Shown here: positions 45,561-54,261 of the stretch, in pieces | Layout of the letters: every line of letters starts with the position of its first letter | Numbering within the stretch: the stretch's first letter is position 1 | Origin: Thermothelomyces thermophilus ATCC 42464 | Lineage: Eukaryota > Ascomycota > Sordariomycetes > Sordariales > Chaetomiaceae | Assembly (NCBI RefSeq): GCF_000226095.1 | Contig: NC_016475.1 | Span: 1,922,001-1,986,000, forward strand | Reading direction: 5' to 3' | Length of the DNA stretch: 64,000 bases | The notes under the pieces: generated by a model | The model's database searches: none | Seen by the model: only the letters and a program-made list of their open reading frames with translations | Told to the model about the DNA's origin: nothing | Made by a program: the position numbers and the translations under genes

Positions 45561-47071
45561 CTTGGACCAACGTACGTTTCAGTAGGCGAGTGACTTACCT
45601 GATGCGATATTGGAGGTGATGCGTCTGGTTTGCAAGAGCCAGACCGCCAGAGAGAGCCTCCTTTTGTATTCAGCTCTTCGAATCCGTTGGGGTAAAACAA
45701 ACCTGCGGCAGCATGGGCCTGGAAGCCGACGCATAATCTCATGAACACCGAGCTAAACATGGCCAAGCCTCGGTGGGCGAGGCAATATACACGACTACGC
45801 CCCGTTCTCCTTTACAATACAGTCCCCCGAGCAATATAACTTCATTCCAGGCACCGTCCGTTTTTACTTGGCCCCGGTCGGAGGGGACTGGGATGTGTCG
45901 AACATGACAGAGACCCGCTCAGTCCAAGACCATACATACCAACAACAGTTGAGAAGCATAGAGAAGACTGTCGGCTTGGAGGTTGCCCATGAAGTGTGTG
46001 AGGGGTGCTCAAGGAAGAAGTAATGCTACAGATCTTCGCAACATCGCCCCGAGGTTCCCAACTCTCCCGCTCTCTCGTCCATGGAGTAGCGACTCCGATT
46101 GAGCCCAAACAGGAGGGCGGAGCTTGAACATCCCAATCCACAGTTTGGGCCCGGTCGATAGTCCGATCCACTAAGCCTTCCCCGGGTTGCGGTGAACGGT
46201 ATGCTCCAACCCTGTCCGTCTGGTCTGCTCTATGGGAGCGACAAAGAGCGCCGAAATATTTGAAGAATATTGCCAATGTAGCAAAGAAAGCATGCGGACC
46301 ATGTGACGGAGGGGTAGGTAGCTCGAGCAACTGCTGGTCACAGTGGAACGTTGCCCATCCCGCCACATGCCACCGCGGCTGGTGCGACCTCCGGCTTGTA
46401 AGTGACGGGCCCACTTGCGCTTCGCGGTACCAAATTGAGAACCCAGACATTTTGAAGACCGCCGGCAGAGGCATTGCTGGGGAAAGCCGAAGAACAATGG
46501 AGGCTCGTATGGTGGTGAGCGAGAGCTGAGGCTGTTGACAGAGGTGTCGCTGTTGAATCCTCATACGACAATGAACATTCCTAAGGTAGGTTCGAAATAT
46601 TAACGAGATAAGTTGAGAGATCTCCAACTTGGCAAGAGCCTCAACTCGGGAGAGCCGCCGGGGCGGGAAGGTCTAGACCGGGCTTCAATTGGGCACCGGT
46701 GTTGAGCTAGCTGCCCACATAGGAAACAAGGTGGTCTAGAACTCTCAACACCAGCTGTTATTTGATGATCCTTTTCGACGCGACACGTTTCCTCTCAGGG
46801 TCTAATACCGAGCTTTGTGCCCATTAAGCTTAGTGAATGCACTGGCTGTTGCCCCGGCCACAAGCACGGAGTACATCATGTGTATATCCGAGGACAGATC
46901 CAAGTAAGGTACAAATACACGCCTGCCATTCCGAGCTGTTGGATCTGGGACGGGAGGACGTAGACAGGGAGCGCAACCAGATCAGTGCGGCATATAAATG
47001 CCACGTACCGCAAGTGAAGAACGAGAACCGAGAAGAGTATGTATGAGCAGCCCCGGCCAAGTCCATGCCAT
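45561..47071. other. Intergenic region with one unexplained long reading frame
   Basis: 1.5 kb between the GH7 remnant and FPG. The only item of note is a 261-codon minus-strand frame at 45842-46627, listed separately. A TATA-like segment (CAATATACAC near 45786) may be the old GH7 promoter. Confidence 0.45.
45842..46627 (-). CDS. Hypothetical 261-residue reading frame, unrecognised
   Basis: An uninterrupted ATG-to-stop frame (starts MEISQLISLIFRTYLRNVHC, ends SKNGRCLE). The composition is Ser/Pro/Arg/Leu-rich with no recognisable domain, no signal peptide and no repeat. A frame this long is unexpected by chance in ordinary-GC intergenic DNA. Even so, the protein looks low in helix-forming order and unlike a folded enzyme. 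It may be a lineage-specific gene, an antisense shadow of a lost gene, or chance. I assign no function. Confidence 0.25.
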   Translation of the reverse strand: MEISQLISLIFRTYLRNVHCRMRIQQRHLCQQPQLSLTTIRASIVLRLSPAMPLPAVFKMSGFSIWYREAQVGPSLTSRRSHQPRWHVAGWATFHCDQQLLELPTPPSHGPHAFFATLAIFFKYFGALCRSHRADQTDRVGAYRSPQPGEGLVDRTIDRAQTVDWDVQAPPSCLGSIGVATPWTRERESWEPRGDVAKICSITSSLSTPHTLHGQPPSRQSSLCFSTVVGMYGLGLSGSLSCSTHPSPLRPGPSKNGRCLE

Positions 47072-48407
47072 TCACGCGGTTTTCCTTTGCAGCCTGCTTG
47101 ACCGCCGCCTGCCGTGCTCGACATTGCTGCCTATCCTTTCCGCAACTTCCCCCTTAGTGGCCTGCGATTCGCTCGTCGCAGACTTCTTGGGGGTAGCTCT
47201 GCTCCTTTTTGCTGGTATCTCGTCCTTTTCTGCCTTCCTCTTTTTGCTTTTCGGCATAGCGTCCTCTGCAATTGCGTCCTTTGCCCTAACAACTTTCTTG
47301 GGTTTTTCCTTCTCCAGGTCAGACTCGATGGGTTCCTCCTTGACGCCGGGAACAATGCGACCACTCTTCTTTTGTATCTCCGGCACATAGCAGCTTGTCC
47401 TCCCCCCTACTGTGAGAAAGGCCAGCTTCTCGCCGCTGGGCAAATGGCCCACTCCCCCCTTCTGACCTTTTTCCCATCGGTAGTGGAACAGCCAGTCCTC
47501 GGGAAATTGGTCAGAATCCCCGAGCTTGTCGACGGCAAATTGACAGACATGACGAATGGATTTGTAGAGCCTTGTTATCTGCTCATCGCTAAAGTCATCG
47601 CAGTATTGTTCTGGATGCAGCTTCGCCTGGTAGAGGACCTCGTCGCCTACCCAGTTGCCGATCCCGCTGATGATGGTCTGGTCAAGAATGAGCGCCTTGA
47701 TTGGAACATGGCGCGAGCGCATCTTTTCTCGGAGGTAGTCCTCAGTGAAAACGTCGGTGTCAACGACCGGGTCAGTGCCGTTTTCTACGAGCGGGGAGAA
47801 CTTCCTGATGCTCTCGCCCGGGCAATCCACGAGGCGCACACGGCCAAAGCGGCGGGGATCTGTGAAGGCAACCTCAACTGCCGGGTTCTCGGTTATCAGG
47901 TGGAACTTCCAGTATTTCGGGGGCCAGAGATCCATTTCTTCCGGCTTCATCTTCTTGTAATAGTTGGTATATGCGGTTCGATCCCCTTTGATGTGGATCC
48001 AGCCTACAGTGGTGTGTTAGCAATCGCAAGTATCCAGGGATCTAGGAACATGGGAGGGAGGTACCTGTCATTCCAAAATGCATCACAGGATGAGGCGGCT
48101 GATCGAGAACAAGCCTGATCAAGTTAGCTGCTTGGAACTCCGCGGTCATACGGTATCCTACCAGAAGTATTTGCCTTGTGTCCCCGCTGATAGAACTTTC
48201 TTTCCGGTGAGTGCCCTGGAGACCTCCGCTCCCGTCGTTCCGACTTTGCCAAAAACATTGTTATCCTCTACCGCAGTGGCGGTCTTGATTTTCTTCCCAA
48301 CCAAGTGCAACCGCAGGTAGTGCACCACTCGAGCGACTGAATTGAGTGGTTAGCGAGGTAAACAGAACGGTCAAAGGCTCCAGCATACTCTCCGCAATCT
48401 CAGGCAT
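47072..48407 (-). CDS. FPG1: Formamidopyrimidine-DNA glycosylase (Fpg/MutM family)
   Basis: A base-excision repair glycosylase/AP lyase of the Fpg/Nei family. Exons 48407-48389 (19 bases), 48336-48162, 48114-48065 and 48003-47072 give 391 residues. The mature N-terminus MPEIAEIARVVHYLRLHLVG has the catalytic Pro2 and Glu3. Lys and the lesion-recognition parts follow in GKKVLSAGTQGKYFW and QPPHPVMHFGMTGW. FTDPRRFGRVRLVDCPGE and the helix-two-turn-helix ISGIGNWVGDEVLYQAKLHP are clear. As in plant and fungal members, the C-terminal zinc finger is absent; instead there is a beta-hairpin-like GGRTSCYVPEIQKKSGR and a Lys/Arg-rich nuclear tail with KKRKAEKDEIPAKR. It is divergent from the snoRNA host transcript. 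Confidence 0.92.
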
Positions 48408-48741
48408 GGTTATTTCCCTTCTGGTTAAGTTTCTGCCAAGGCGGTGCTACGATGGAAGTTTTCCCCCTTGCGAACCTCTTGACGCGCGTCAGCCGAATGA
48501 GGTGATGGGGACATTGGTCGTCAAGCAAACGCGACCAGGAAACGGAAGCACGTGACTCGAAGCACAGACACTGCCGGGCGACCCCACTTGAGCTCCAGAG
48601 TTTTCCCACTGCTCCACAGCAAGGTCCAGCTTCAAAAATCTGATCATCAGCTTCGAGTTTTCTAGCCTGCTTCTTCCGACTCCCAACCGCCAACATCTTC
48701 TGGTAAGTCATCATTTTCCTTGTCCATGATTCGCAGCGCGC

Positions 48742-48841
48742 AGCAGGCAATTGCCTGATGACAAGCCAATACCGCAAACTAGAGTCTTTGATCTCCGGAC
48801 ATGAAACCAGAAATTGATACGTCAGTCTGATCATTGCTGCT
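48742..48841 (+). ncRNA. Box C/D snoRNA 1 of the array (target unknown)
   Basis: Box C CTGATGA at 48755-48761 and box D CTGA at 48827-48830. A terminal stem pairs GCAAT (48747-48751) with ATTGC (48833-48837). The guide upstream of box D reads GATACGTCAGT. I do not recognise its rRNA target. It lies in intron 48703-48903. Confidence 0.65.
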
Positions 48842-49099
48842 GCCGCCGATCGCGTTGACATTTTTCCTTAGTGACCCCGAGCTAGGTGCTGACATGTAAC
48901 CAGGATTACTGACGGTTGACATGCGCCGGTCACCACGCGGAAACCGGAGGATTGGTTGGATTGCACCATAGACTCTGGCAGTTCTCGCGGGTGAACAGTC
49001 TAGCTCGGCTTAGTAGGAAGCTGACCTGCACTCTCACAGTGGATTGGACGTCTGAGCCTAACAGCATCAAGGTTAGTCTATATTTGCTCTTGCTACTCT

Positions 49100-49192
49100 T
49101 CGTTCCATGATGATCTTTTCTTTGCTTCGGCAAGTTGGAATTACCGACTGATCCTCCTTGAAGAAAACAAACTGGCTGTTTCTGATCCATTT
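49100..49192 (+). ncRNA. Box C/D snoRNA 2, snR77-like guide for 18S rRNA
   Basis: Box C ATGATGA at 49107-49113, box D' CTGA at 49148-49151, box D CTGA at 49182-49185. The 11 bases TGGAATTACCG just before D' are complementary to the universal 18S segment CGGTAATTCCA. The fifth base upstream of D' pairs with the U of GGTAA, which corresponds to yeast 18S U578, the 2'-O-methylation guided by snR77. It lies in intron 49072-49259. Confidence 0.8.
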
Positions 49193-49309
49193 TGCTCTCG
49201 GCTCTATCTATGTTTGAACGTCATTCTGGGAGCTTCGAAGACTGACACTCAACTGCTAGATTAATCTCTCTCCGATTAGGTACGCGGATTTATCACCAGA
49301 TCTTTGACA

Positions 49310-49403
49310 TGTTTCTATGATGAAGCGGCACTGGGCTCCGAATACCCATGAGCAGACATGCCACTTTGCGACAGGCCTAGAAAACCTCGTCCACTGATCA
49401 GCA
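49310..49403 (+). ncRNA. Box C/D snoRNA 3 of the array (target unknown)
   Basis: Box C ATGATGA at 49317-49323 and box D CTGA at 49394-49397. The guide candidate before D is AAAACCTCGTCCA. No rRNA match recognised. It lies in intron 49280-49460. Confidence 0.62.
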
Positions 49404-49536
49404 CCAGCCATCACCGTCGCTCGCCTTGACTCCTTTGGGAACCCGAGCTAACCATGCAAGATGGCAGTGTCCTGATTTAGTCCGCCACGTCCATTGTTCA
49501 ATCTGTAAGAACATTTTACCTTTCCAACCCCTCTTT

Positions 49537-49630
49537 CACTCTTGTGATGACTCTAGATGACGAGTCTGATCCGGGATTCCCGTTGAAGACAACCTTTTTA
49601 TACTACCATTCATGCTTCTCTGATATTTGT
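49537..49630 (+). ncRNA. Box C/D snoRNA 4, likely 25S rRNA guide
   Basis: Box C GTGATGA at 49544-49550, internal CTGA at 49566-49569, box D CTGA at 49620-49623. The ten bases CCATTCATGC ahead of box D are complementary to the conserved 25S segment GCATGAATGG. The exact methylated base depends on the box D register, so it is left open. It lies in intron 49505-49685. Confidence 0.68.
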
Positions 49631-49779
49631 CTACGGACATTGGCAATCGTTCTTCTTTTGACGAACCTTGGCTAACCGATTCTAGGATAGTCACGTAGCC
49701 TCTACATTTGACTTGGCCGGCATGGTCTGGCTTTAAGTATGTCCAGCTCGGATCTCATCACTCCACTTCACTGCACATC

Positions 49780-49865
49780 CACCCTCATGATGACTTGACC
49801 TTAAAACAATGACAAGCATATGTCAGAGCTCACGCGAAGACGACATCGTCCTGTCTGATCTATAG
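49780..49865 (+). ncRNA. Box C/D snoRNA 5 of the array (target unknown)
   Basis: Box C ATGATGA at 49787-49793 and box D CTGA at 49855-49858. The guide candidate before D is GACATCGTCCTGT. No target recognised. It lies in intron 49737-49919. Confidence 0.62.
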
Positions 49866-50008
49866 CCTGACACATCACCGTTTCGATCACTCTGGATGAC
49901 CGTATGCTGACAATCGCAGATCAACTTCAAACATGCCACTTGATGTGGACATTCACCCCGCGCCCATGACACGGTAAATGGTAAGAATACTTTCCCCTTC
50001 TATCTAAA

Positions 50009-50102
50009 CACTTCAATGATGATTCCAAAATTTTCACGACGGTCTACATAGCTTATGCCTTGATGAGACTGCCGGTGACACGGCTTTAACCCTGATCAAG
50101 TT
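50009..50102 (+). ncRNA. Box C/D snoRNA 6, likely 25S rRNA guide
   Basis: Box C ATGATGA at 50016-50022, a C'-like TGATGA at 50061-50066, and box D CTGA at 50092-50095. A terminal stem pairs ACTT (50010-50013) with AAGT (50098-50101). The 13 bases TCACGACGGTCTA are complementary to the universal 25S segment TAGACCGTCGTGA, the neighbourhood of sites guided in yeast by snR69/snR71. The D' box after the guide is degenerate. It lies in intron 49981-50159. Confidence 0.72.
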
Positions 50103-50231
50103 ACTTTCCATGCACTTGTTTCCTCTGCCTGTTTATGGTTCACGAGCTAACATAGACAGTGTTCCAGAACGCCTTGACCCCCGTATGTTGTCCTAAACTC
50201 ATGGAGGAACTGGATGGATGATGGATCTTGG

Positions 50232-51629
50232 TCACTTGGCCAAATAGAACGACAATGCCATGAGGATGCGGCAAACGTGCCTCAAGTCGTTCTTCGACTT
50301 TGTGTTCCATGGTCCGTAGCAATGCATTTTGAGGAAGCTTGTATCGGAGATCTTGCCTGAGGGGTTGGCGGAGTGGTGAAGTCCGAGGAATCGCTCGTAC
50401 GTGCTGTCGTACTCTGCAATGGTGATGTAAATTTCCCCATGGTCCTGGGAAACGAGCAATCTCCTGAGTGACACCAGAAAAGGCTTAGTACATTGTCTAT
50501 GTAGAGGACTTCAAATTGAAACCGATTAGTGCGTCAGGTTTGGGGCATAGACATACCGTTTCACTCCAGCCTTGCGACAACGAAGGAGGCCAAAATCCGA
50601 ACTGGGCGGTTTCTCCAGGTACAGCAACTTGTAGATGTAGGCGGCCATCTGAGCTCCTTCTTGCCATTGAATCCGCCCGAGTTTCTTGCTCCGAGCACAC
50701 GGCTTGACCTCTATCAGTGCAGCCGCAAGCTGGTGCTCCGTGTGCCTGAGACAGCCATCGGTCCGAGCCTCGAGATACTTAGCCGTATTCCTGCCGGAGG
50801 CCGTCGTTGCGGCGTTTCCAGCAGGCAATGACTTGAGAATCCTGAGAAGCTCGCGATTAGGTATCCAGCGATAGCCTCGCGCCCTCAGGGCCTCCTCGGG
50901 CTCAGTTAGCGAGTTGAGGAGGAGAAGGAGCGCCATATTGACAATTATCTCGTCTTCCGTTGGTGAAAACTCCGACGGGCGGGCTGGTGACGAGCCGTCC
51001 GGGTGTGCCGACGTGTCAGAGACGGGCGACTCAGCCCTAGTGGGGGGAGTGGACGCCCCATGGTGGGCAGCAAGCTCTTCAGCTAGGCGTGCTTCTTCAG
51101 CTAGGCGTGCTTGAGCTGGGGAAGGCTTGTCTGGCGGAGAGTAATCGAGGTCAAGATCCATTCTCGATGGCGAGCCTTTCCGGGCTAAGGGGGACTCGGG
51201 GATCCATTCGCGGTGGCGTCCGAAACGCACGGGCTGAGGGGTCAACACGACCTTCAAGGAGGAGATATCCATCGTCGCATCTAGTTTGTACACCATATCG
51301 AAGTACAGACGGACTAGTGAAAAGATGGAATCCTCGGGATAACCCGTGTGCATTTGTTGAACACTGTCGAAAAAGGCTTTGGACTTGGGCGTTTCAAGGC
51401 GCTGAGCCGCCTTTGCGGCGGAAACCTGATCGACATATTCATCGAGCTTGAACCGTTTGCTCGTATACGTTTTCCACAGAATCCTGAGACACAAGAAATG
51501 AGCGAAGGTCAGTTCAGAGGCCGACTCCGTGCTTGGCAGATCGGATATTGACAAGGAGTCGGGATTGACGTGAGGCATAACGTCTGCTACGGCCTTTTTC
51601 CACTCCGCAGGACGGGCTGGGTTCGCCAT
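50232..51629 (-). CDS. PD-(D/E)XK nuclease-like protein of unknown function
   Basis: Exons 51629-50557 and 50463-50232 give 434 residues. The N-terminal half is helical (PAEWKKAVADVMPHVNP; FAHFLCLRILWKTYTSKRF). A disordered Ser/Pro linker is followed by a domain with Asp291 (ARTDGCLRH), an E-x-K strand (Glu307 and Lys309 in AALIEVKP) and a Gln-containing helix (IQWQEGAQMAAYIY). That order is the PD-(D/E)XK pattern. The second exon completes it with strands (EIYITIAEYDSTYERFLG) and ends FLKMHCYGPWNTK and RHVCRILMALSFYLAK. Similar proteins are scattered and expanded in Sordariomycetes with no known role. The linker contains a tandem duplication of the six-residue unit EARLAE. Nuclease activity is not shown; the domain call is by motif only. 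Confidence 0.72.
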
Positions 51630-52691
51630 GTTGGAGATTCGAGGTGCGCCTGATGACGATAAGGTGCTGTTTTCCGAGGTTGTTGTGGGACGGTAGTGTC
51701 GTATCGTGAATTAAGCGCGTTGGCTGCTAGTTAAAGGAGGCGTGGCTGCCTGACTTCGGTCCTGCCTCCAAGAGTACCAAGATCCAGCTTTTATACAATC
51801 AGACGCATTGAGGAAGGCGCTCATGCAGTGGTTGTTTGCAACGCCTCCAAAAGATGACTTTCATAACTCCTCTTCTAAAATTAGGGTGGTCGGGCAGGGT
51901 CGACTGGCCGGCTGTTGAGCTGGGGCTTGCACGTCTTGCCCACATCAAAACCACGACAAGAGCATCTCTGCAACCTCATGAAACCGGCGTTTTGTTTGAG
52001 TCTCTGCGGTAAAGCAGGTCGCTCCGTACGGCCGCAAATGGCTTCAACCCCCCCCTTGCATTAGGACTCGGCGTGTTGGTTCGCACCTCACAGGTGCGGA
52101 GTCTATGGATGGCCTTGTTGGTTAGGAGACGGCTCTCTTGTGGACTTCGGTTTCTCGCGTTTCATAGACAATCCTCAGACCAACACATAATACTGCACAG
52201 TACGGTCTCTATTTATCCACGTTAGGATTGTTATACAATATCTATATATTGTAGTTGATTCATATGGTACTCACTATATGTATTCCGTAGTGTACTCGGT
52301 AATGGTTTTGTTATGGCGCACCACCCTTGACCATGTGGGGTTGTAACCGTTTCTAATTTGCTGTGGGACGAGACGGCCACCCGCCAAGGGTTGGCAGGCC
52401 GAGGTGGCTGCGGCGCGTCGCGAAACGGATCCGGAGCATTACAAGCACCAACATCAGATAGTGCCCGTTACCTTACGGCACATGCACGGCACATGCACGG
52501 CACAGGCCGTTTCGTCACTTAATCATAACACGTCAATGCAGACGTGACCGTGTTGTGCCTTCTTACAACACCAGATTTTCACCGTGTATTTATTCCGCGC
52601 CCACTTTGGCTTCCCCGACCACCAGTCAATCAACTTAACTTCGACCAGATCACCTGCCCATTTTGAGCTTAAGCAGCTTCACCACCACCTC
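51630..52691. promoter_or_regulatory. Divergent intergenic region between two lineage-specific genes
   Basis: 1.06 kb between the PD-(D/E)XK-like gene and the next plus-strand gene, relatively AT-rich in 52180-52330. It holds a small tandem repeat of an 11-base unit (GGCACATGCAC, twice and partial) at about 52476-52505 and a near-copy of the recurring 9-mer at about 52280. No gene seen. Confidence 0.5.
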
Positions 52692-54261
52692 ACAATGGCG
52701 TCTCGCTCGTACCCGACATCTCCAGAGTTTTGGAAACTCGTGGCGCTTGAGAAAAAGCTGATGGAGCTTCCCGTGGAAACTACGACCTTTTCCATCAGGA
52801 CTCTAAAGGAAATGGGCATCGATACGGAGCCCCGGCTTGACATCGACGATCCAGACGCAACGGGCTCCTCCCCTGTTTTCTTCAAGCCTTTCCCTGACAT
52901 TCCCGCTTGGCGAAGCGCCATCAACGATCTTATAGGCGACGAAGGTGATGACTGGGATCACTGTCCCGACGAAAAGGAACACTTTGATCGGCTGTCATGC
53001 GCCCTCCATGTCATTCATTCGCTCACATATCTCACGCAGTATGGTATGCTCATGGACAAACTCTACCCCAATGACGCACCGAAATGGTCTATAATTAGGT
53101 AAGTGCTTTGTTCCGTTTGGCTCTCTCCTTACGGCCTCATTCTCCTCATAAGCTGCGCAGTATGTATACTTAGTCAGTCCATCAGTGCCGACCAGGGTGT
53201 TCACCTTCCGGAATATTCTGCTAGCGATATCCACCTCAGAAAACATGGCGAGCGTCCTATTGAGCCGTTGCCTCAATGGTCCTGCCCTTCGGCCATGGTC
53301 GTCAAAAAAACTCGAGAAGTGAACCATATCGTGTGCCCCATAGCCGACAACGTCTCGCACAAGCTCAATCCAGATCACGCACTTCGCAGCGAGATCACTG
53401 CTGGAGTCTCCATGATAAGAAGGCGGATTACCGTTACACACGATACGTACAGCCCTATTCCGGTATGTTCAATTCAGCAATGGTTCACTTGAACAGCCTT
53501 TCTTAACCACCGGACAGGTCCTTTTACTCTCCTTCTATCACAATGAGACGGTTCGCATCACCCAGATGTGCTGGAATGGCGAGCGCAACCCCATCACTAT
53601 CCGACAATCACGCCTGATCAACATTGTCTCGAATTCATTCAAAAGAGAGGAGATATACCTACTACTCCGTTGGATGTGTTGTATCCCGCTCCGTGAGCCC
53701 AAGGTGCGCCGCAAGCAGTCAACGACCGGAGAACCGGGTCGCCCGGCAACGCCTCTTCGTACAGGCACAGGCTCCAACTCCAGCGCCGCCTCGAAGTCGA
53801 AGCCTGCAAGTACACCAGTCGTTACCCATCCCGCAGTGGCCAATGCCCCAACGCCGACGGGGACACCGACGCAGAAGACATCCGGCGCTGTCAGCAGTAA
53901 CAACAGTCCTGCCCGTTCAGAAGCCCCTACATCCGCGCGGAGAACAACCAACAAAGACACGAATGCCAGTCCTCCTCGTCCAACCACCAACCTACCATTG
54001 AGGCCCACTACCCCTCCTACTGCCTCTGCCCCTAGCAAGAAAGCTGCAGGCAACACCACCGCGCGCACGACCCCGGGAGGCAATGGTGCGGCACATCTCC
54101 CTGGCCACCACGCCACTTCTCTGGGTGACAATAGTCCTCCCAGGGCGAAGAGCGCCCCTTCCGCTGCCAAGCAAATTGCCGGCTTGCCAGTGCGAGGTGG
54201 CAGTACCAGTGGCAATGGTGGCACAAGCAGCAATGCCGGTGTGTCCCATGCGAAGCATTAA
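52692..54261 (+). CDS. Unknown protein with low-complexity C-terminus
   Basis: Three exons, 52692-53098, 53174-53462 and 53518-54261, give 479 residues. The start has a good context (ACAATGG); the frame is also open upstream. The first 330 residues look folded (EFWKLVALEKKLMELPVETT; HVIHSLTYLTQYGMLMDKLY; ALRSEITAGVSMIRRRITVT; YHNETVRITQMCWNGERNPI; FKREEIYLLLRWMCCIP). The last 165 are a Thr/Pro/Ser/Ala-rich disordered tail (TPTGTPTQKTSGAVSSNNS). The acceptor of intron 1 could also be at 53185, which would drop four codons. I do not recognise the domain. Gene architecture (folded block plus polymorphic tail) and position next to another lineage-type gene suggest a rapidly evolving accessory gene. 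Confidence 0.62.

Follow-up and report, generated by a model that had tools for sequence, protein, structure and literature searches.

Six box C/D snoRNAs in the predicted introns of a Thermothelomyces thermophilus locus very probably mark the ortholog of fungal snoRNA gene cluster I

What kind of gene has six consecutive introns that each contain a single box C/D snoRNA, which snoRNAs are they, and is the arrangement shared with other fungi? These questions are raised by a locus of Thermothelomyces thermophilus ATCC 42464 within the 64,000-nucleotide stretch of contig NC_016475.1 that we analysed (hereafter the window, in whose coordinates all positions are given). Here, we describe the layout of the locus, assign its snoRNAs to known types, and compare it with clusters described in other fungi. 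We conclude that it is very probably a spliced non-coding host of six intronic box C/D guides for rRNA methylation and the ortholog of fungal snoRNA gene cluster I.

Inspection of the plus strand between positions 48703 and 50159 revealed six GT..AG introns, each with a single box C/D snoRNA. Box C reads TGATGA and box D reads CTGA in all six, and CTAAC or CTGAC branch sites, as the original prediction had claimed, are present in six of six. Each intron below runs from the first base of its donor to the last base of its acceptor AG; the acceptors, on which the lengths depend, are our choice, and further AGs lie near most of them.

48703..48903, plus strand: intron 1, 201 bases, donor GTAAGT, branch CTGAC 48889, acceptor ending at 48903
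49072..49259, plus strand: intron 2, 188 bases (208 with the acceptor at 49279), donor GTTAGT, branch CTGAC 49242, acceptor ending at 49259
49280..49467, plus strand: intron 3, 188 bases, donor GTACGC, branch CTAAC 49448, acceptor ending at 49467
49505..49685, plus strand: intron 4, 181 bases, donor GTAAGA, branch CTAAC 49672, acceptor ending at 49685
49737..49919, plus strand: intron 5, 183 bases, donor GTATGT, branch CTGAC 49907, acceptor ending at 49919
49981..50159, plus strand: intron 6, 179 bases, donor GTAAGA, branch CTAAC 50147, acceptor ending at 50159

From the first base of the donor to the start of box C we measured 53, 36, 38, 40, 51 and 36 bases in introns 1 to 6, and from the end of box D to the last base of the chosen acceptor 73, 74, 70, 62, 61 and 64 bases, with 71-80 bases between the start of box C and the end of box D. 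The spacing first reported for the locus (box C 35-52 bases after the donor, box D 61-74 bases before the acceptor) holds in these measured positions.

A layout descriptor, written as a regular expression for donor, box C, box D, branch site and acceptor, matched exactly these six introns and nothing else on both strands of the 64-kb window, and it matched 100 dinucleotide-preserving shuffles of the window 0.04 times on average, with a maximum of 1. Because the descriptor was composed once the six introns had been seen, this test is not unbiased; the support that is independent of it is the three above-cut-off Rfam matches described below, the only ones in the window. The box C pattern by itself was uninformative, with 11528 forward and 11592 reverse matches over the whole genome.

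The introns define the following predicted exons, of which the first and last have arbitrary outer ends.

48600..48702, plus strand: predicted exon 1, upstream of the first donor, start arbitrary
48904..49071, plus strand: predicted exon 2, 168 bases from acceptor to next donor
49260..49279, plus strand: predicted exon 3, 20 bases, or absent with the acceptor ending at 49279
49468..49504, plus strand: predicted exon 4, 37 bases
49686..49736, plus strand: predicted exon 5, 51 bases
49920..49980, plus strand: predicted exon 6, 61 bases
50160..50400, plus strand: predicted last exon, downstream of the last acceptor, 3' end arbitrary

The alternative acceptor AG of intron 2, ending at 49279, abuts the donor at 49280 and would place two introns next to each other without an exon between them. 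Small internal exons and lost internal exons have both been described for cluster hosts, Euascomycetes included (PMC3596301).

Could these exons encode a conserved protein, so that the snoRNAs would be intronic passengers of a coding gene? Such an arrangement has precedent in Neurospora, where both protein-coding and non-coding hosts carry snoRNAs in their introns (PMC2780460). However, joining the predicted exons, with the outer ends set arbitrarily at 48600 and 50400, yielded no notable ATG frame: the longest encodes 48 amino acids, a length equalled or exceeded in 343 of 500 shuffles. Four internal exons measure just 20-61 bases, and the spliced hosts of such clusters, as far as the published accounts we drew on describe them, have short frames only (PMC3596301, PMC2780460). 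We therefore regard a coding host as very improbable. A different route would dispense with splicing, the snoRNAs being excised from an unspliced polycistronic transcript in the manner of budding yeast; in Saccharomyces cerevisiae and its close relatives the snoRNAs of all three clusters do derive from unspliced transcripts (PMC3596301). Against this route, donor, branch and acceptor signals flank all six snoRNAs of the present locus at similar distances, which leaves it scarcely any probability. The reading originally put forward, a non-coding host with one snoRNA per intron, is thus supported by splice signals in six of six introns and by the lack of a notable ATG frame.

We assigned the snoRNAs to types through Rfam matches, guide pairing and position in the cluster; the coordinates below extend from box C to box D.

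48756..48830, plus strand: putative snR78/72-type double-guide snoRNA (weak Rfam matches, guide pairing, first place in the cluster)
49108..49185, plus strand: snR77-type snoRNA (Rfam Afu_300)
49318..49397, plus strand: snR76-type snoRNA (Rfam Afu_513)
49545..49623, plus strand: snR75-type snoRNA (Rfam snR75)
49788..49858, plus strand: putative snR74/U27-type snoRNA (Rfam SNORD27, weak; guide pairing)
50017..50095, plus strand: snR73-type snoRNA (Rfam snR73 just under cut-off, guide pairing)

Searching the whole window against Rfam, a check of the kind suggested along with the original prediction, identified three matches above cut-off, one in each of introns 2 to 4; in narrower scans intron 6 matched just under cut-off (snR73) and introns 1 and 5 weakly. 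Intron 3 holds the strongest family match of the locus, Afu_513 at 78.1 bits (cut-off 48), together with snR76 at 29.8 bits (cut-off 55); intron 4 matches snR75 at 76.1 bits (cut-off 40), and intron 2 matches Afu_300 at 59.2 bits (cut-off 40) and snoR77Y at 32.4 bits (cut-off 52). We equated Afu_300 with the snR77 type and Afu_513 with the snR76 type by means of these overlapping matches. The table in PMC2780460 equates snoR77Y with snR77, snR74 with U27, and snR78 with U52. A laxer scan of the 7001 bases from 46000 to 53000 returned seven matches, none outside the locus. Besides the five just given for introns 2 to 4, these are snR73 in intron 6, at 34.7 bits slightly under its cut-off of 37 (E 0.0069), and SNORD27 in intron 5, at 25.2 bits far under its cut-off of 52 (E 0.75); SNORD27 again ranked first in a 261-base scan of 49700-49960 (E 0.028).

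For intron 1, a scan of 48700-48910 produced two non-significant matches, SNORD52 at 14.7 bits (cut-off 45, E 1.2), mostly in the D' half, and snoZ122 at 16.5 bits (cut-off 38, E 7.1), mostly in the D half, with unrelated Rfam families scoring almost as high. Taking snoZ122 as snR72 type, which is our reading of its guide, this pattern fits a fused snR78/72 double guide. The identities of the first and fifth snoRNAs are accordingly putative, drawn from weak matches and guide pairing. When the genome was searched with the intron-1 snoRNA, only the locus itself matched.

To which rRNA sites would these guides be directed? In yeast numbering, we take the targets to be 25S U2421 and A876 for snR78/72, 18S U578 for snR77, 25S C2197 for snR76, 25S G2288 for snR75, 18S A28 for snR74, and 25S C2959 for snR73. 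Pairing was scored against seven short S. cerevisiae rRNA fragments, with the sites known beforehand, because the organism's own rDNA was not found: one 18S and one 25S pattern, both conserved stretches, had no match in the genome with one or two mismatches allowed, and zero matches in the collections of viral contigs and genome contigs. The rDNA array may have been left out of the assembly.

Watson-Crick pairing with the expected yeast fragment extended over at most 12 bases in intron 1 (25S, U2421 site), 11 in intron 2 (U578 site), 9 in intron 3 (C2197 site), 11 in intron 4 (G2288 site), 12 in intron 5 (18S, at A28) and 13 in intron 6 (25S, C2959 site). Five of the six introns thus form duplexes of at least 11 bases; among 1945 pieces of 94 bases drawn at random from the window, a single one did. 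By length intron 3, with its 9 pairs, does not stand out, since 152 of these pieces pair over 9 bases or more. Allowing G-U pairs discriminated weakly (at least 12 pairs in 30 of 486 random pieces) and brought intron 5 to a tie at 12 with a wrong fragment. Counted back from the D'-like box, the fifth base faces the expected rRNA letter in introns 1, 2, 3, 4 and 6, and in intron 5 only with that box shifted one base by hand. Compared with CTGA, the D'-like boxes are non-standard in introns 1 (TTGA), 3 (CCGA), 5 (CAGA) and 6 (CATA), and in these four introns they were selected to follow the duplex.

The second guide of the putative fused snoRNA pairs less extensively. In intron 1 the snR72-type D guide (48819-48825) forms only 7 Watson-Crick pairs with the yeast 25S A876 region, plus one additional G-U pair found by hand. 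For Neurospora CD5, which carries both the snR78 and the snR72 guide, pairing at A876 is tabulated as 10/0 (PMC2780460). It is conceivable, if unlikely, that the snR72 half has decayed here, such that methylation at the A876 equivalent would be lost or partial and that at U2421 kept. As a separate observation, the snR75-type snoRNA contains near box D (49606-49615) a second Watson-Crick stretch, of 10 bases, with the yeast 25S fragment, about 20 bases past the main target.

Is the cluster one that is already known? On the plus strand the snoRNAs follow the order snR78/72-77-76-75-74-73. The full order of types in fungal cluster I is snR78-77-76-75-74-73-72; snR72 has been lost from the cluster in most species, the snR78/72 fusion is present in all Euascomycetes surveyed, and all snoRNAs of the three clusters are intronic in this group (PMC3596301). 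The Euascomycete form of cluster I, as presented in the parts of PMC3596301 available to us, shares with our locus the order of types with snR78/72 first, one snoRNA per predicted intron, the absence of a long reading frame, and an end that no additional boxes with splice signals follow. No additional match to the descriptor, as a separate downstream snR72 might provide, was found within the window. Comparing by snoRNA type, order and layout, we found no difference from that published form. Of the cluster introns predicted there, 83 of 323 were verified by ESTs or RT-PCR (PMC3596301).

The same six types are reported for Neurospora crassa as CD5, CD24, CD12, CD7, CD21 and CD31, all intronic and on chromosome VI; this likeness is one of snoRNA types only, and other snoRNAs also lie on that chromosome (PMC2780460). 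Neurospora clusters I to V yield spliced host transcripts by RT-PCR, with exon skipping in cluster I (PMC2780460); to judge from the naming, the snR72-78 cluster would be that cluster I and so among those tested. The budding-yeast snR72-78 polycistron, in the accounts available to us, shares the order of snoRNA types and differs in having no introns and in keeping snR78 and snR72 separate. Mammalian UHG/GAS5 hosts are alike in being non-coding and spliced with one snoRNA per intron, whereas their snoRNA composition differs, a comparison drawn by the authors of PMC2780460.

The locus is of a kind already known, and its snoRNA order and content make it orthologous to loci described before. The main text of PMC3596301 includes Chaetomium globosum, Podospora and Neurospora, and the names Myceliophthora, Thielavia, Sporotrichum and Thermothelomyces are absent from it. 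The part of PMC8535861 available to us touches on Chaetomium thermophilum snoRNAs in a single general remark, and among the titles and abstract openings of the literature matches listed there was no description of this locus in Thermothelomyces or Myceliophthora. With this annotation of a non-coding gene, one further genome joins those that have the Euascomycete form of the cluster, whose snoRNA order is common to that form and budding yeast. The locus is ordinary and raises no new question.

We infer how the locus would be transcribed, spliced and processed and how it would act in rRNA methylation. RNA polymerase II would produce a non-coding, spliced plus-strand transcript whose six introns contain a single box C/D snoRNA each, the exons being non-coding spacers. 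Intronic snoRNAs are processed by debranching and exonuclease trimming. After splicing, each intron lariat would likewise be debranched and trimmed by exonucleases to the protein-protected snoRNA, and the trimmed snoRNAs would guide 2'-O-methylation of rRNA at the yeast-equivalent 25S and 18S sites.

Lastly, we looked at the surroundings of the cluster. The mechanical list of open reading frames has frames over the locus on both strands, for example one of 153 amino acids on the minus strand at 48400-48861; minus-strand 48400-48567 has no Pfam match. Downstream, the minus strand holds a 367-amino-acid open frame at 50526-51629, also with no Pfam match. The upstream neighbor is a divergent gene:

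47075..48407, minus strand: Fpg-type DNA glycosylase gene, H2TH domain at 47075-47950, start read by eye

Its assignment comes from a Pfam match of 75.1 bits to the H2TH domain of formamidopyrimidine-DNA glycosylase, accompanied by a second, C-terminal Fpg-like match of 22.5 bits, short of the 27.1 bits set as cut-off. The minus-strand H2TH match thus upholds the head-to-head placement of an FPG gene noted earlier, here as an FPG-type gene, whose start codon near 48407 is about 300 bases away from intron 1.
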